Source: Sulfurimonas sp. HSL3-7
Lineage (GTDB): Bacteria > Campylobacterota > Campylobacteria > Campylobacterales > Sulfurimonadaceae
NCBI RefSeq assembly: GCF_039645985.1
Contig: NZ_CP147919.1
Coordinates: forward strand, 1,302,001 to 1,366,000
DNA length: 64,000 nucleotides
Direction: 5' to 3'
The translations under genes and the position numbers were made by a program. The notes beneath the pieces were generated by a model. That model was not told the origin of the DNA, did not search any database, and saw only the letters and a list, made by a program, of their open reading frames with translations. The number at the start of each line of letters is the position of its first letter. Position 1 is the first letter of the stretch. This document shows, one piece after another, positions 12,119 to 16,245 of the stretch.

Positions 12119-13609
12119 ATGATGTCCCTTTCCAAATCCCTCTACACCCGCGGCATCCAGTGCCCCAAATCACTCTGGCTGAAAAAGTACAAGCCTGACA
12201 TTTTAACCCCTCCCGATGCGGCGGCGCTGGCGCGGTTCGAGACGGGGAACATCGTCGGTGATCTTGCGTGCAATCTCTTCCCCGGCGGGCGGGAGGTTGC
12301 CTACGATGCTTCCGGTTTCAAGAAGATGGCCGGGACGACGAAGCGGTGGCTTGACGAGGGGCTGGAGTACATCTACGAGGCGACCTTCATCTATGAGGGG
12401 ATCGTCATCATGGCCGACATTTTGTGCAATACCCCCGAAGGGGTGGAGATCTATGAGGTCAAAAGCTCCACCGATGTCAAAGAGATCTATCTGCATGACG
12501 TCTCCATACAGCGCTACGTCCTCGAACGTCTGGGGTACAGCGTCAAAAACTGCCATGTGGTGCACATCGACAGCTCCTACGTTCGGGGTGAGGAGCTTGA
12601 CCTGAACGGCCTTTTCACGATCGTCGATGTCAGCGATGAGGTCGATGCCTTGATGGAGGGTGTGCCGGTGAAGCTGGCCGAGTTCGAAGCCTGTCTGGGC
12701 GACCGCGAGAACGAGCCCGGCATCGAGATCGGAAAGCAGTGCAAAAACCCCTACGACTGCGATGCGTTGCACTACTGCTGGAAGGTGCAGAGGGAGATCC
12801 CCGACTACTCCGTTTTCAACATCTTCAACCTCGGCAGCAGGAAGCAGGTCGAGCTGTACGGGCAGGGGATCGTGAGGATCGAAGATATCCCCGACGACTA
12901 CCCGATGACGGCGGCGCAGAGACAAAAAGTGGCGAACTGGAAAAGCCGGGCGAGCCGGATCGACAAAGAGAAGATCAACGCCTTTTTGGAGACGTTGAGG
13001 TACCCTCTCTACCATCTCGACTTCGAGAGCTTTCAGCAGGCGGTCCCCGAGTGGAGAGGGGTCAGCCCCTATCAGCAGATACCGTTCCAGTATTCGCTGC
13101 ATATAGAACGCGCAGACGGCACTTTGGAGCACAGAGAGTATTTGGCAGAAGAGGGGAGTGACCCGCGGCACGGGCTCGCAGAGAGGCTGATCGAAGACAT
13201 CCCGGACAATGTGACGGTGCTGGCCTACAACATGAGCTTCGAGAAGGGGGTCATCGAAAAGCTGGCGGCCGACTATGAAGAACTGGCAGACCATCTGCGC
13301 CGCATCAACGAAAACATGCGCGACCTGATGCTCCCTTTCCAAAAGCAGTACTACGTCACGCCGCAGATGCAGGGGAGCTACTCCATCAAGTACGTCCTGC
13401 CCGCACTGGTGCCGGAGATGGCACGCGCCTATAAAGAGCTCGACGGCGTGCAGAACGGCAGCGAAGCGATGAACGCCTTTGCCAAGCTTTCAGGCATGGA
13501 GCCGGAAGAGAAAGAGAAGACCCGTCATGCTCTGCTGGCGTACTGTAAGCTTGACACACTGGCGATGGTAAAAGTGTTGGAGAAACTGAAAGCAAGTGTA
13601 CTCAGATGA
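12119..13609 (+). CDS. DUF2779 protein: Cas4-like nuclease plus DEDD-type exonuclease domain
   Basis: A 496-residue protein with two predicted nuclease parts. The N-terminal half looks like a PD-(D/E)XK domain of the Cas4/AddB type: D100, E113-x-K115 in I-Y-E-V-K-S-S-T, and Q131. Cysteines C15, C208, C214 and C220 are placed to hold an iron-sulfur cluster. The C-terminal half has the acidic pattern of a DEDDy exonuclease: D301-x-E303 in YHLDFESF, a middle motif Y-N-M-S-F-E (370-375), D402, and Y475-C-K-L-D479. A role in DNA repair or defence is inferred. The ATG at 12119 lacks a strong ribosome site; a second ATG follows directly. No partner gene is adjacent. Confidence 0.75.
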   Translation: MMSLSKSLYTRGIQCPKSLWLKKYKPDILTPPDAAALARFETGNIVGDLACNLFPGGREVAYDASGFKKMAGTTKRWLDEGLEYIYEATFIYEGIVIMADILCNTPEGVEIYEVKSSTDVKEIYLHDVSIQRYVLERLGYSVKNCHVVHIDSSYVRGEELDLNGLFTIVDVSDEVDALMEGVPVKLAEFEACLGDRENEPGIEIGKQCKNPYDCDALHYCWKVQREIPDYSVFNIFNLGSRKQVELYGQGIVRIEDIPDDYPMTAAQRQKVANWKSRASRIDKEKINAFLETLRYPLYHLDFESFQQAVPEWRGVSPYQQIPFQYSLHIERADGTLEHREYLAEEGSDPRHGLAERLIEDIPDNVTVLAYNMSFEKGVIEKLAADYEELADHLRRINENMRDLMLPFQKQYYVTPQMQGSYSIKYVLPALVPEMARAYKELDGVQNGSEAMNAFAKLSGMEPEEKEKTRHALLAYCKLDTLAMVKVLEKLKASVLR

Positions 13610-13742
13610 AATCGAAATCGAATTGTTGCGGAGACGATGGGTTTGAAGGTCTGTATTGGAGGATAATTTTTTTGTTTCAGGGGGAGCCGGTGCTCTCTTG
13701 CGAGGGCACCATATTTAAGGAGTAGTCAATTTAGAAAATGGC

Positions 13743-13877
13743 CTAGAAAACCATATCTAAATGCGGTGAGAATTCAGGGATGTAGATACCCGCGTCCTCG
13801 TAAGCCGCCATGTGGTGTGCAGATGCGCTTACCGCCATAGCTCCGGCGATCAGTAGTGCTGTAATCAACTTTTTCAT
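13743..13877 (-). CDS. 44-residue exported peptide, paralogue A
   Basis: The signal peptide MKKLITALLIAGAMAVSASA (residues 1-20) ends in an A-x-A site. It leaves a predicted 24-residue mature peptide that starts H-H-M-A-A-Y-E-D-A-G-I-Y-I and ends SPHLDMVF. AAAGGAT lies about six bases before the ATG at 13877. A paralogue lies at 15439-15576. The N-terminal His-His-Met could bind copper or another metal; this is inferred from composition and from the MerT/HMA genes nearby. No family known to me. Of the stretch 13610-14060, the rest on either side holds no further gene. Confidence 0.75.
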   Translation of the reverse strand: MKKLITALLIAGAMAVSASAHHMAAYEDAGIYIPEFSPHLDMVF

Positions 13878-13918
13878 GTTGTATCCTTTTTTTTTGAGAT
13901 GCGGTATTGTGACAGAGT

Positions 13919-13936
13919 AGTGTTAGCGCAGTATAA
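13919..13936 (-). promoter_or_regulatory. tandem-repeat operator upstream of peptide A
   Basis: On the minus strand TTATACT-GCGC-TAACACT is a 7-4-7 direct repeat, the layout of OmpR/PhoB-family response-regulator boxes. It starts 42 bases upstream of the ATG, exactly as the copy before peptide B does. A -10-like CACAAT follows the box about seven bases downstream, so the box would cover the -35 region. Confidence 0.5.
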
Positions 13937-14060
13937 GTATGGATGATTGTTCAGATGACGTGCAGACAGGTTGTTTTATTGTTATATAGGTCACAATACC
14001 GGAAATACAGAGAGACGAGGGCGGTGATGTTGCTGCTGTTGTTCACAAAGGTCCATAGCC

Positions 14061-14618
14061 ATGATAAGCCGTTTAAAGATCGTACAGCTGCATATGCTGT
14101 TGTCAAGTTTTGTACTGCCTGCCGTACTGCTCTATATCGTCAGCGGGGCGCTCTATACTCTGGGCGTCAAAGGGCATGTCGCGAAGCAGACCTTTACCGT
14201 TGCGCTGGAAAAACCGTTTGCACCGGATCTTGCGCTGCTTTCGGGGGTTGCGGAAAAGGCACTTGTTGAGAGAGTGCTTCCTGTCCCCGAGGGCGATCCG
14301 TATCTTAAAAAGTCAAAAGGCGGCTATAAGTTCCGTTGGGACGATCTGCACTACGCCGTGACGCTGGTTGCCAACAAAGATAACCGTTCGGTAGAGCTGA
14401 CCTACCGGGAACGGAGTGTTCTTACACAGGTCATGCGCATACACCGTGCCGAAGCCGGCATGACATTCAAGATCGTCTCTATACTGGCGGTAGCGGGGCT
14501 GTTCCTGGTTTTTGCGTCGGGGCTTTACATGGCCTACACGGTGCCGAAGTTCCGCAATCCGAGTCTCCTGGCCACCGGCCTGGGTCTGTTAATGCTTCTG
14601 GTCATCGTGCTTGCGTAG
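14061..14618 (+). CDS. PepSY-type membrane protein
   Basis: A 185-residue protein with a membrane segment at about 11-31, an extracytoplasmic middle part containing a single PepSY-like unit (DPYLKKSKGGYKFRWDD and following beta strands), and two C-terminal segments at about 134-156 and 167-185. PepSY-associated membrane proteins often accompany iron or copper reductases and transporters; the role here is not known. The ATG at 14061 has only a weak ribosome site. It lies between the two exported-peptide genes, transcribed divergently from peptide A. Confidence 0.65.
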   Translation: MISRLKIVQLHMLLSSFVLPAVLLYIVSGALYTLGVKGHVAKQTFTVALEKPFAPDLALLSGVAEKALVERVLPVPEGDPYLKKSKGGYKFRWDDLHYAVTLVANKDNRSVELTYRERSVLTQVMRIHRAEAGMTFKIVSILAVAGLFLVFASGLYMAYTVPKFRNPSLLATGLGLLMLLVIVLA

Positions 14619-14677
14619 AAAGGAAGAATGTTTTTGACAAGAGGCCTGCGCACGAAAGTGCTGCAGGCAGAAGTGTT

Positions 14678-15064
14678 TTAGCCGTTAAGCTTCTTAAGCA
14701 TATGGTCCATAACCATACTGTGTTCGTGCTGCGGGCTGAAGAGCACCAGTTCGGTGTCGTTGTCGGCGCGGACAGTGTGCCCCGGCGGCCAGTAGAACAT
14801 GTCGCCTGTCTTGACGATCTCTTTGGAGTCGTCGGCGTAGGTCACCGTCAGTTGGCCTTCGAGTATGTGGCCCCAGTGCGGGCATTGGCAGAGGTCGCCT
14901 TCCAGCCCTTTCAACAGCGGTTCAATGTCCGCCCCTGCACCCAGGGAGAAGTACTCCCCGCTGATCTTCCCGTACCCCGTAGCGTCGCCGAAGTCGACCT
15001 GCTGCCTGGCTTTTGCACCCGGTATGTCGATCTTGACGGGGATATCGTTTTTGTTCATTCGCAT
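14678..15064 (-). CDS. cupin-domain protein
   Basis: A 128-residue single-domain cupin. Motif 1 is recognisable as C-P-H-W-G-H-I-L-E-G-Q-L and motif 2 as G-D-M-F-Y-W-P-P-G-H-T, with histidines able to hold a metal. No enzyme activity can be assigned. GAGAGG lies about seven bases before the ATG at 15064. It converges with the PepSY gene and is followed upstream by the MITE-like element at 15082. Confidence 0.75.
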   Translation of the reverse strand: MRMNKNDIPVKIDIPGAKARQQVDFGDATGYGKISGEYFSLGAGADIEPLLKGLEGDLCQCPHWGHILEGQLTVTYADDSKEIVKTGDMFYWPPGHTVRADNDTELVLFSPQHEHSMVMDHMLKKLNG

Positions 15065-15081
15065 TGTACACCTCTCGTATT

Positions 15082-15191
15082 AGGGCACCTCTGAAAACCC
15101 TAGCTGATGCCAGGGAAAAAAGAGGCGAAACGGAGTGTGATTTTTTCTCTTTCTTCTCTCTGAGACTAACTAGGGTTTTTAGAAGTGCCCT
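15082..15191. mobile_element. 110-bp MITE-like element
   Basis: Two 22-base inverted repeats (15082-15103 and 15170-15191) match at 20 of 22 positions and begin AGGGCACCTCT. They enclose 66 bases with no reading frame. Size and structure fit a miniature inverted-repeat element. The ends recall IS5-type termini, from memory. I see no clean target duplication. The rest of the gene-free stretch to 15438 shows nothing. Confidence 0.6.
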
Positions 15192-15438
15192 TGAGTAACT
15201 AAACACAAAAGAAAGTAACACTTTCCACGTAATCCTACCTACAAATTAGCATAGCAAGTGTTCTATAGCGATTAAGTATTTCGGTTAATTATAAAAGATA
15301 ATTATTTTATGATTGGCAATGGTTTGTATCGGAAGGGGTGGTTTTAGATGATCTGCATGGAAGAAGGGGGTGTCAAAGGCGAAAGATGCTTTCGAATGAA
15401 AGCATCCTGCCTCCGGCAAATCGGATCTGGAAAAAGGC

Positions 15439-15576
15439 CTAGTAGAAGACCATGTCCAAATGCGGGGAATCTTCATCGATGTAGATACCCGCATCATCAT
15501 ATGCTGCCATGTGGTGCGCGAACGCGCTTGATGCCAGAGCCGCTGCCATCAGTAGTGTTGTAATAAACTTTTTCAT
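15439..15576 (-). CDS. 45-residue exported peptide, paralogue B
   Basis: Paralogue of the peptide at 13743-13877. The signal peptide MKKFITTLLMAAALASSAFA (1-20) is followed by a predicted 25-residue mature part starting H-H-M-A-A-Y-D-D-A-G-I-Y-I and ending SPHLDMVFY. The mature parts match at 21 of 24 aligned positions, more than the signal peptides do, so the mature peptide is under selection. AAAAGGAAA precedes the ATG at 15576. The upstream regions of the two genes are also similar. Metal binding is an inference from H-H-M. Confidence 0.75.
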   Translation of the reverse strand: MKKFITTLLMAAALASSAFAHHMAAYDDAGIYIDEDSPHLDMVFY

Positions 15577-15617
15577 GTTGTTTCCTTTTCTTTTTGGATG
15601 CGGTAGTATGACAGTTA

Positions 15618-15635
15618 AGTGTTAGCGCAGTGTAA
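15618..15635 (-). promoter_or_regulatory. tandem-repeat operator upstream of peptide B
   Basis: On the minus strand TTACACT-GCGC-TAACACT, the same 7-4-7 box as at 13919-13936 and at the same 42-base distance from the start codon. A -10-like CATACT lies seven bases beyond it. Confidence 0.55.
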
Positions 15636-15661: not shown

Positions 15662-15940
15662 TTAAGGTGCTTCGATCGGTTCCCGGGAGACGAGAATACC
15701 CTCGTAGCCCGTTTTTGAAATCGCCTCGGAGAGGGCCGCATTGCTCAGGGCGTCGTCGTGCCACACCCTGGCCTCTTTGGTGTTGAGGCGCACTTCGGCC
15801 CTGTGGACGCCGTCGAGCGCTTTGAGGCTCTTCTTGACGGCGACGGTGCAGAGCGGGCAGTGCATCTTCGGCACCTCGTAGAGGCTCAGGGTCTCGCCCC
15901 AGAGCCACAGCGGCAGTCCGAGCAGCAGCAGGGGTCTCAT
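15662..15940 (-). CDS. exported heavy-metal-associated (HMA) protein, MerP-like
   Basis: A 92-residue protein. A hydrophobic N-terminus (about 1-15) looks like a signal peptide. An HMA fold follows with M-H-C28-P-L-C31 as metal-binding site and K-T-G-Y-E-G near the end. MerP-type proteins carry metal ions to a MerT-type membrane transporter. The start chosen is the ATG at 15940, which overlaps the stop of the MerT-like gene by four bases (ATGA); the longer open frame upstream is a shadow of that gene. The metal may be mercury, copper or another soft metal. Confidence 0.8.
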   Translation of the reverse strand: MRPLLLLGLPLWLWGETLSLYEVPKMHCPLCTVAVKKSLKALDGVHRAEVRLNTKEARVWHDDALSNAALSEAISKTGYEGILVSREPIEAP

Positions 15941-16245
15941 GCGGCGAACTCGATGTAGGGGACGGCCAGCAGGGCGATGAGCGCGGCGGAGATGGCCGAG
16001 AGCAGCCAGATGGTGCGTCTGTTGTTCAGCACGCAGGCGCGGCGGCGGTAGAGGCGGACCCAGGCGAGCAGCAGCAGGGTGACGCTGAGGCCCTGGAACC
16101 AGACCTGGTAGGGCGCAAGCAGGTCGAGGAAGCCGAAAGAGGCCATCGAGACCCCGAAGAGCAGAAAGAGCAGGGCGCTGCCGCAGCACGACAGAGCCAG
16201 AAGAGCCGACGCAAGCGCCCCAAGTCCCAGAAATTCGACTCTCAC
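15937..16245 (-). CDS. MerT-like metal transport membrane protein
   Basis: A 102-residue protein with three predicted membrane segments (about 6-32, 45-64 and 78-97). A vicinal pair C20-C21 lies in the first helix (A-L-S-C-C-G-S-A), as in MerT, and a third cysteine, C71, lies after the second helix. MerT passes metal from the periplasmic carrier into the cell. It overlaps both neighbours by four bases (ATGA), so transglutaminase-like, MerT-like and HMA genes form one tight operon. No MerA or MerR is present, so mercury resistance is not implied. Confidence 0.7.
   Translation of the reverse strand: MRVEFLGLGALASALLALSCCGSALLFLLFGVSMASFGFLDLLAPYQVWFQGLSVTLLLLAWVRLYRRRACVLNNRRTIWLLSAISAALIALLAVPYIEFAA

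Follow-up and report, generated by a model that had tools for sequence, protein, structure and literature searches.

Sulfurimonas sp. HSL3-7 encodes two members of a previously unrecognised family of short, predicted exported peptides that start with His-His, for which the name HHM is coined here. The export, selection and co-regulation of HHM are well supported, and its mature sequence suggests that it may bind metal. The two genes lie in a window of 64,000 nucleotides, the whole stretch of DNA that was analysed, in which an initial annotation had described two paralogous reading frames with A-x-A leaders and proposed an undescribed exported family with an N-terminal His-His. Both frames are present as described, on the minus strand and with lengths of 44 and 45 residues; searches of Pfam, NCBIfam and the PDB returned no relative, and 92 gene copies were collected. 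An apparent promoter site of a two-component regulon, tandem arrays and a second paralogue class (HH[PN]SPS...SGHL) go beyond that annotation.

Two intact HHM genes in the window

HHM1 (13743-13877, minus strand), identified by ORF calls and homologues, encodes a 44-residue precursor composed of the leader MKKLITALLIAGAMAVSASA and the mature part HHMAAYEDAGIYIPEFSPHLDMVF. Its predicted signal peptide of 20 codons (13818-13877) ends in ASA, in keeping with the leader layout common to all 92 family copies, and is followed by a 24-residue mature peptide (13746-13817) carrying the residues that are invariant in 60/60 distinct mature sequences; a Shine-Dalgarno sequence, AAGGA, is present at 13884-13888. 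HHM2 (15439-15576, minus strand), recognised in the same way, encodes a 45-residue precursor (MKKFITTLLMAAALASSAFA followed by HHMAAYDDAGIYIDEDSPHLDMVFY) with a predicted 20-codon signal peptide ending in AFA (15517-15576), a 25-residue mature peptide placed by the family alignment (15442-15516), and the Shine-Dalgarno sequence AAGGA at 15583-15587. The precursors are 77% identical, and alignment agrees with the annotated identity of the mature parts at 21 of 24 positions, which share the layout HHMAAY..DAGIYI..SPHLDMVF after an AxA cleavage site. No third copy was found in the window's own genome.

HHM1 and HHM2 are confirmed as intact genes, and purifying selection acts on the part that encodes the mature peptide. 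Between the pair, pN is 0.09 and pS 0.67 in the mature part versus 0.18 and 0.39 in the leader, indicating that selection keeps the peptide sequence. It is almost inconceivable that the reading frames are chance or decayed sequences rather than real genes: they are short and no family model matches them, but 92 copies conserve length, leader, Shine-Dalgarno sequence and promoter, together with the purifying selection. The suggestion that such genes are too short for most gene callers was overstated, given that 44 codons exceed the default minimum of common callers, which in Prodigal is 90 nt. Also present are a 39-residue reading frame with a Cys-Cys pair (13606-13725), on the opposite strand just 3' of HHM1 and with no family match, and an imperfect inverted repeat (15082-15191; AGGGCACCTCTGAAAACCCTAG ... 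CTAGGGTTTTTAGAAGTGCCCT) between the cupin gene and HHM2, which resembles a MITE remnant.

Anatomy and distribution of the family

Among the products of the 92 gene copies, 76 precursors and 60 mature peptides are distinct. Leaders are 20 residues long and end in Ala (position -1) in every copy, and 82/92 copies have Ala at -3; His is the first residue after AxA in 82/92 copies and after xxA in 92/92, and cleavage by signal peptidase at this point would expose His1. Mature peptides range from 24 to 34 residues, with H1, H2, A9, G10, S17 and H19 invariant in all 60 distinct sequences and Leu20 retained in 57/60. The family has two main classes, HHMA..(D/E)DAG.xIPxxSPHLxMxF and HH(P/N/L/M)SPSxxAGGN(I/M)SxxSGHL..., alongside a Sulfurovum form, HHPAPVDQAGxGIPDNSGHWD. 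Met3 and Met22 differ between classes, and the possible metal ligands common to all members are therefore the amino terminus and the three histidines. AlphaFold2, run on the HHM alignment, predicted a helix for the signal peptide and coil for the mature part.

A homologue search had been named beforehand as a check on the family, and relatives were found. With HHM2 as query, homologues matching it in length and layout were present in 24/200 genomes of the window genome's family, and alignment searches recovered HHM in 8 genomes of a 150-genome sample of a Sulfurovum-like family and in 8/63 genomes of Thiomicrospirales, the order that includes Thiomicrorhabdus heinhorstiae. Two matches were rejected as unrelated proteins: a ninth match in the Sulfurovum-like sample (G674, 447 residues) and one in G234 (291 residues). 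HHM was not found in the genomes searched from other families of the order, including Campylobacteraceae, where weak matches had only a leader plus H in common and read like DUF4198 proteins. Elsewhere in the Gammaproteobacteria sample (369 genomes) the seed alone matched, and the plasmids and viral contigs searched held no relatives. Among the samples searched, HHM is confined to Thiomicrospirales and two families of Campylobacterota, one Sulfurimonas/Sulfuricurvum-like and the other Sulfurovum-like, with named records that include Sulfurimonas, Candidatus Sulfurimonas ponti, Sulfuricurvum, Sulfurovum sp. AR, and Thiomicrorhabdus heinhorstiae. It is likely that HHM moved between Campylobacterota and Thiomicrospirales by a horizontal route.

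Neither Pfam nor NCBIfam profiles recognise HHM. Matches to NCBIfam AimP and Pfam LPAM_1 were confined to the leader and fell far under the cut-offs, and a match in the PDB profile search (E 0.68) likewise covered only the leader; all were rejected. A search of the available literature returned no paper on the HHM peptide and nothing on DUF2202, a domain that recurs below.

A candidate envelope regulon

The upstream regions of Campylobacterota HHM genes share a direct repeat with an 11-bp period, (G)CTAACACT-NN-GCTAACACT or TTCACACT-NNN-TTCACACT, which is followed by a -10-like element and usually lies ~60 bases 5' of the start codon. The repeat covers the -35 region, a placement like that of an OmpR-family regulator site. 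HHM1 is preceded by TTATACT...CTAACACT, with the 11-bp period, and the -10-like CACAAT (13906-13936, minus strand; exact pattern match at G000:C1:1315906-1315936), and HHM2 by TTACACT...CTAACACT and the -10-like CATACT (15605-15635, minus strand; exact match at G000:C1:1317605-1317635). Counted on distinct upstream regions of leading genes, a repeat score of at least 12 was reached by 52/54 Campylobacterota regions versus 44/1620 dinucleotide shuffles, and a score of 13 by 49/54 versus 7/1620, with the template drawn by eye from the same upstream sequences and the shuffles thus gauging strength rather than independence. By the same score, the repeat is absent upstream of Thiomicrospirales HHM copies; the regulon is therefore not valid for the whole family, and these copies must be controlled otherwise.

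In a pattern search of the 2.87-Mb genome of the window, TNRYACTNNNCTAACANTN8AYAMT, which was written from the five sites themselves, has those five perfect matches and no other. They precede HHM1, HHM2, a DUF2202 gene, a response-regulator/kinase operon, and an adjoining operon for small periplasmic proteins. Allowing two mismatches gave 13 sites versus 0 for a reversed control. The site at G000:C1:2831477 precedes the regulator-kinase operon (G000:C1:2831.5-2833.2 kb), as would be expected of autoregulation, and the DNA-binding domain of the response regulator scores under the Pfam cut-off (18.7 versus 26.2). In relatives, which hold orthologous operons, the repeat also precedes response-regulator/kinase operons, DUF2202 proteins, and a small exported LTXXQ-like protein without a family match, accompanied by a TSP3-repeat protein. 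The HHM genes look like members of a small two-component cell-envelope regulon, of which this response regulator is the presumed regulator.

A variant repeat, TAACACT-NNTG-TAACACT, occurs in the window's own genome at loci L314 (1775), L315 (1467) and L316 (3059), where it precedes two multi-spanning GHCIGMCGGF membrane proteins (a ccoN-like gene comes after one of them) and a TonB-type receptor. These genes probably answer to a paralogous regulator and are possibly tied to copper and cbb3 oxidase.

The arrangement looks like a DccRS-type envelope regulon in its site and layout. The DccR site was reportedly defined by Wosten as WTTCAC-N6-TTCACW; the HHM repeat has the same 11-bp period and the Sulfurovum HHM promoter TTCACACTAGTTTCACA is an almost letter-for-letter match, whereas the half-site in Sulfurimonas-like genomes is CTAACA. 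According to PMC7118207 and PMC9449129, DccRS (Cj1223c-Cj1222c) of C. jejuni is an OmpR-family two-component system that is autoregulated and controls a few promoters of putative periplasmic or membrane proteins; the HHM-side system is likewise OmpR-type, autoregulated by its predicted site, and linked to a handful of periplasmic-protein promoters, although the family of C. jejuni itself lacks the HHM peptide among the genomes searched. PMC7118207, citing Wosten 2010, gives growth phase and not copper as the activator of DccRS, which counts against a simple copper-resistance story.

Gene neighbourhoods and tandem arrays

The initial annotation had derived a metal role from the neighbours of the pair, and these are as it described: within 3 kb lie genes for a PepSY-TM-like protein (14061-14618, plus strand) and a cupin protein (14678-15064, minus strand), both from ORF calls and domain matches, and for an HMA-domain, MerP-like protein (15669-15940, minus strand) and a MerT-like protein (15937-16245, minus strand), both from domain matches. 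However, none of them is a conserved neighbour at the other 60 HHM loci, and HHM1 and HHM2 each possess their own promoter, making it very unlikely that HHM is part of a local MerT/HMA/PepSY/cupin metal-trafficking cluster; the neighbourhood comparison largely refutes this reading. Across the loci compared, conserved gene neighbourhood was rejected as a clue to function for Campylobacterota.

Thiomicrospirales HHM genes form arrays of up to seven near-identical copies, in 180-200-bp units of 97-99% identity, which suggests selection for dose. Tandem copies, along with the short exported products, the patchy distribution and the likely horizontal transfer between Campylobacterota and Thiomicrospirales, would also suit a secreted signal or a bacteriocin-like antimicrobial. 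This is improbable: the leader is of the Sec-type AxA form and not double-glycine, no conserved immunity, exporter or receptor gene adjoins HHM at the loci compared, the phage-like contigs and plasmids searched hold no relatives, and HHM hardly varies in sequence between phyla, unlike signals and bacteriocins, which tend to diversify.

Several other arrangements were observed. At L120 (9512-10835; G141), a unit of two genes, encoding one member of each class, has undergone tandem duplication (period 775 bp). HHM genes lie 3' of a YbiT-type ABC-F ATPase gene in seven Sulfurovum-like loci, in the same direction (L138-L144; L143 10276-11871), and in 8/8 Thiomicrospirales genomes, convergently (L148-L155; L153 10767-12371). 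The ATPases of the two groups share only ~42% identity, and the adjacency may reflect either a recurrent insertion site or a functional link. At L116 (4173-8493) and L129 (4829-9187), an efflux operon resembling TolC-MacA-MacB lies near HHM genes; in C. jejuni, DccRS targets include the operon of a macrolide-type pump.

Proposed metal binding and alternative roles

The tentatively preferred explanation, held at somewhat less than even probability, is that HHM peptides are induced by envelope stress and bind a transition metal in the periplasm, with the N-terminal His and His19 as the ligands. In this scheme, an autoregulated response regulator of the OmpR family and its histidine kinase would act at the repeat, bound in place of a -35 element, and switch on their own operon, the small periplasmic-protein operon, the DUF2202 gene and both HHM genes, a step that the promoter evidence supports. 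Signal peptidase would then cut the 20-residue leader to release a free peptide of 24-25 residues with an N-terminal His-His, as the sequence layout supports. Finally, Cu(II), Ni(II) or Zn(II) may be chelated by His1 (N-terminal amine and imidazole) and His19, perhaps joined by His2 or acidic residues, with HHM acting, under envelope stress, as a stoichiometric buffer or scavenger, the dose of which would be raised by tandem amplification in some genomes.

A metal role is plausible because three histidines are invariant, including the new N-terminus, and because in three Thiomicrospirales genomes (G742, G743, G720; L153-L155) the HHM array lies beside an operon encoding a response regulator, a kinase and an efflux pump, in divergent orientation to it. 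The pump at L155, the only one of the three scanned, scores 1029 bits against the CusA/CzcA heavy-metal family, for which the cut-off is 701. Its best solved relative is the zinc pump ZneA, which weighs against assigning HHM a particular metal. Also against a metal role, no obvious metal transporter was found among the co-regulated genes in Campylobacterota.

Small metal-buffering proteins include metallothioneins, Helicobacter Hpn and bufferins, and gene amplification is known from yeast CUP1. HHM is similarly small, a putative metal ligand possibly made at high dose, and amplified in the manner of CUP1, but unlike these proteins it is exported, has no Cys and no His-rich tract, and conserves only three His. 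Proteins with an N-terminal His that were found purely by signal peptide and His bind Ni or Cu, and in DUF4198 Ni(II) is held by His1 and His18 (PMC12537917). The protocol of that study drops candidates whose second ligand is residue 2; His19, conserved in 60/60 distinct mature HHM peptides, is a candidate second ligand at a permitted distance. HHM resembles histidine-brace and other N-terminal-His metalloproteins (CopC, LPMO, DUF4198, Ang-1/2; PMC12537917) in its predicted exposed N-terminal His and second conserved His (His19 in HHM, His18 in DUF4198). Those proteins, however, are folded beta-sandwich domains of at least 100 residues, whereas HHM consists of 24-34 residues as a free peptide, unrelated to them in sequence and predicted by AlphaFold2 as coil rather than an Ig-like or beta-sandwich fold, with no PDB relative and no match to the DUF4198 domain (~250 residues) in Pfam or NCBIfam.

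The invariance of A9, G10 and S17 equals that of the histidines and would be needless for a plain chelator, which suggests a partner or a defined fold. These non-ligand residues, the control that HHM shares with the kinase operon and with other small periplasmic proteins, and the putative periplasmic or membrane proteins that make up the DccRS regulon according to PMC7118207 and PMC9449129 would all fit a modulator within the envelope regulon. Such a peptide would bind the sensor kinase or a periplasmic partner, as CpxP-like feedback or a small chaperone, with HH, AG and SxH as contacts and not ligands. This alternative is unlikely, though it carries appreciable weight: the kinase and its operon are present in G234, a genome without HHM, feedback does not need seven near-identical copies, and Thiomicrospirales retain HHM without this promoter site.

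Significance of the HHM family

HHM was missed by the domain libraries searched, yet it is strictly conserved and regulated. It is possible, although doubtful, that HHM is the first family of gene-encoded, unmodified, free periplasmic metallopeptides, in which signal-peptidase cleavage would create a 24-residue His1/His19 site on demand from an envelope-stress two-component system, tandem-amplified in sulfur oxidisers and moved between two phyla. If the metal site is real, HHM would be the smallest natural N-terminal-His metal ligand system known to us and a periplasmic buffer of adjustable dose. Should no metal be involved, HHM would still provide a simple, testable entry to a DccRS-like envelope regulon, the signal and outputs of which are poorly understood, in free-living, non-pathogenic sulfur oxidisers.
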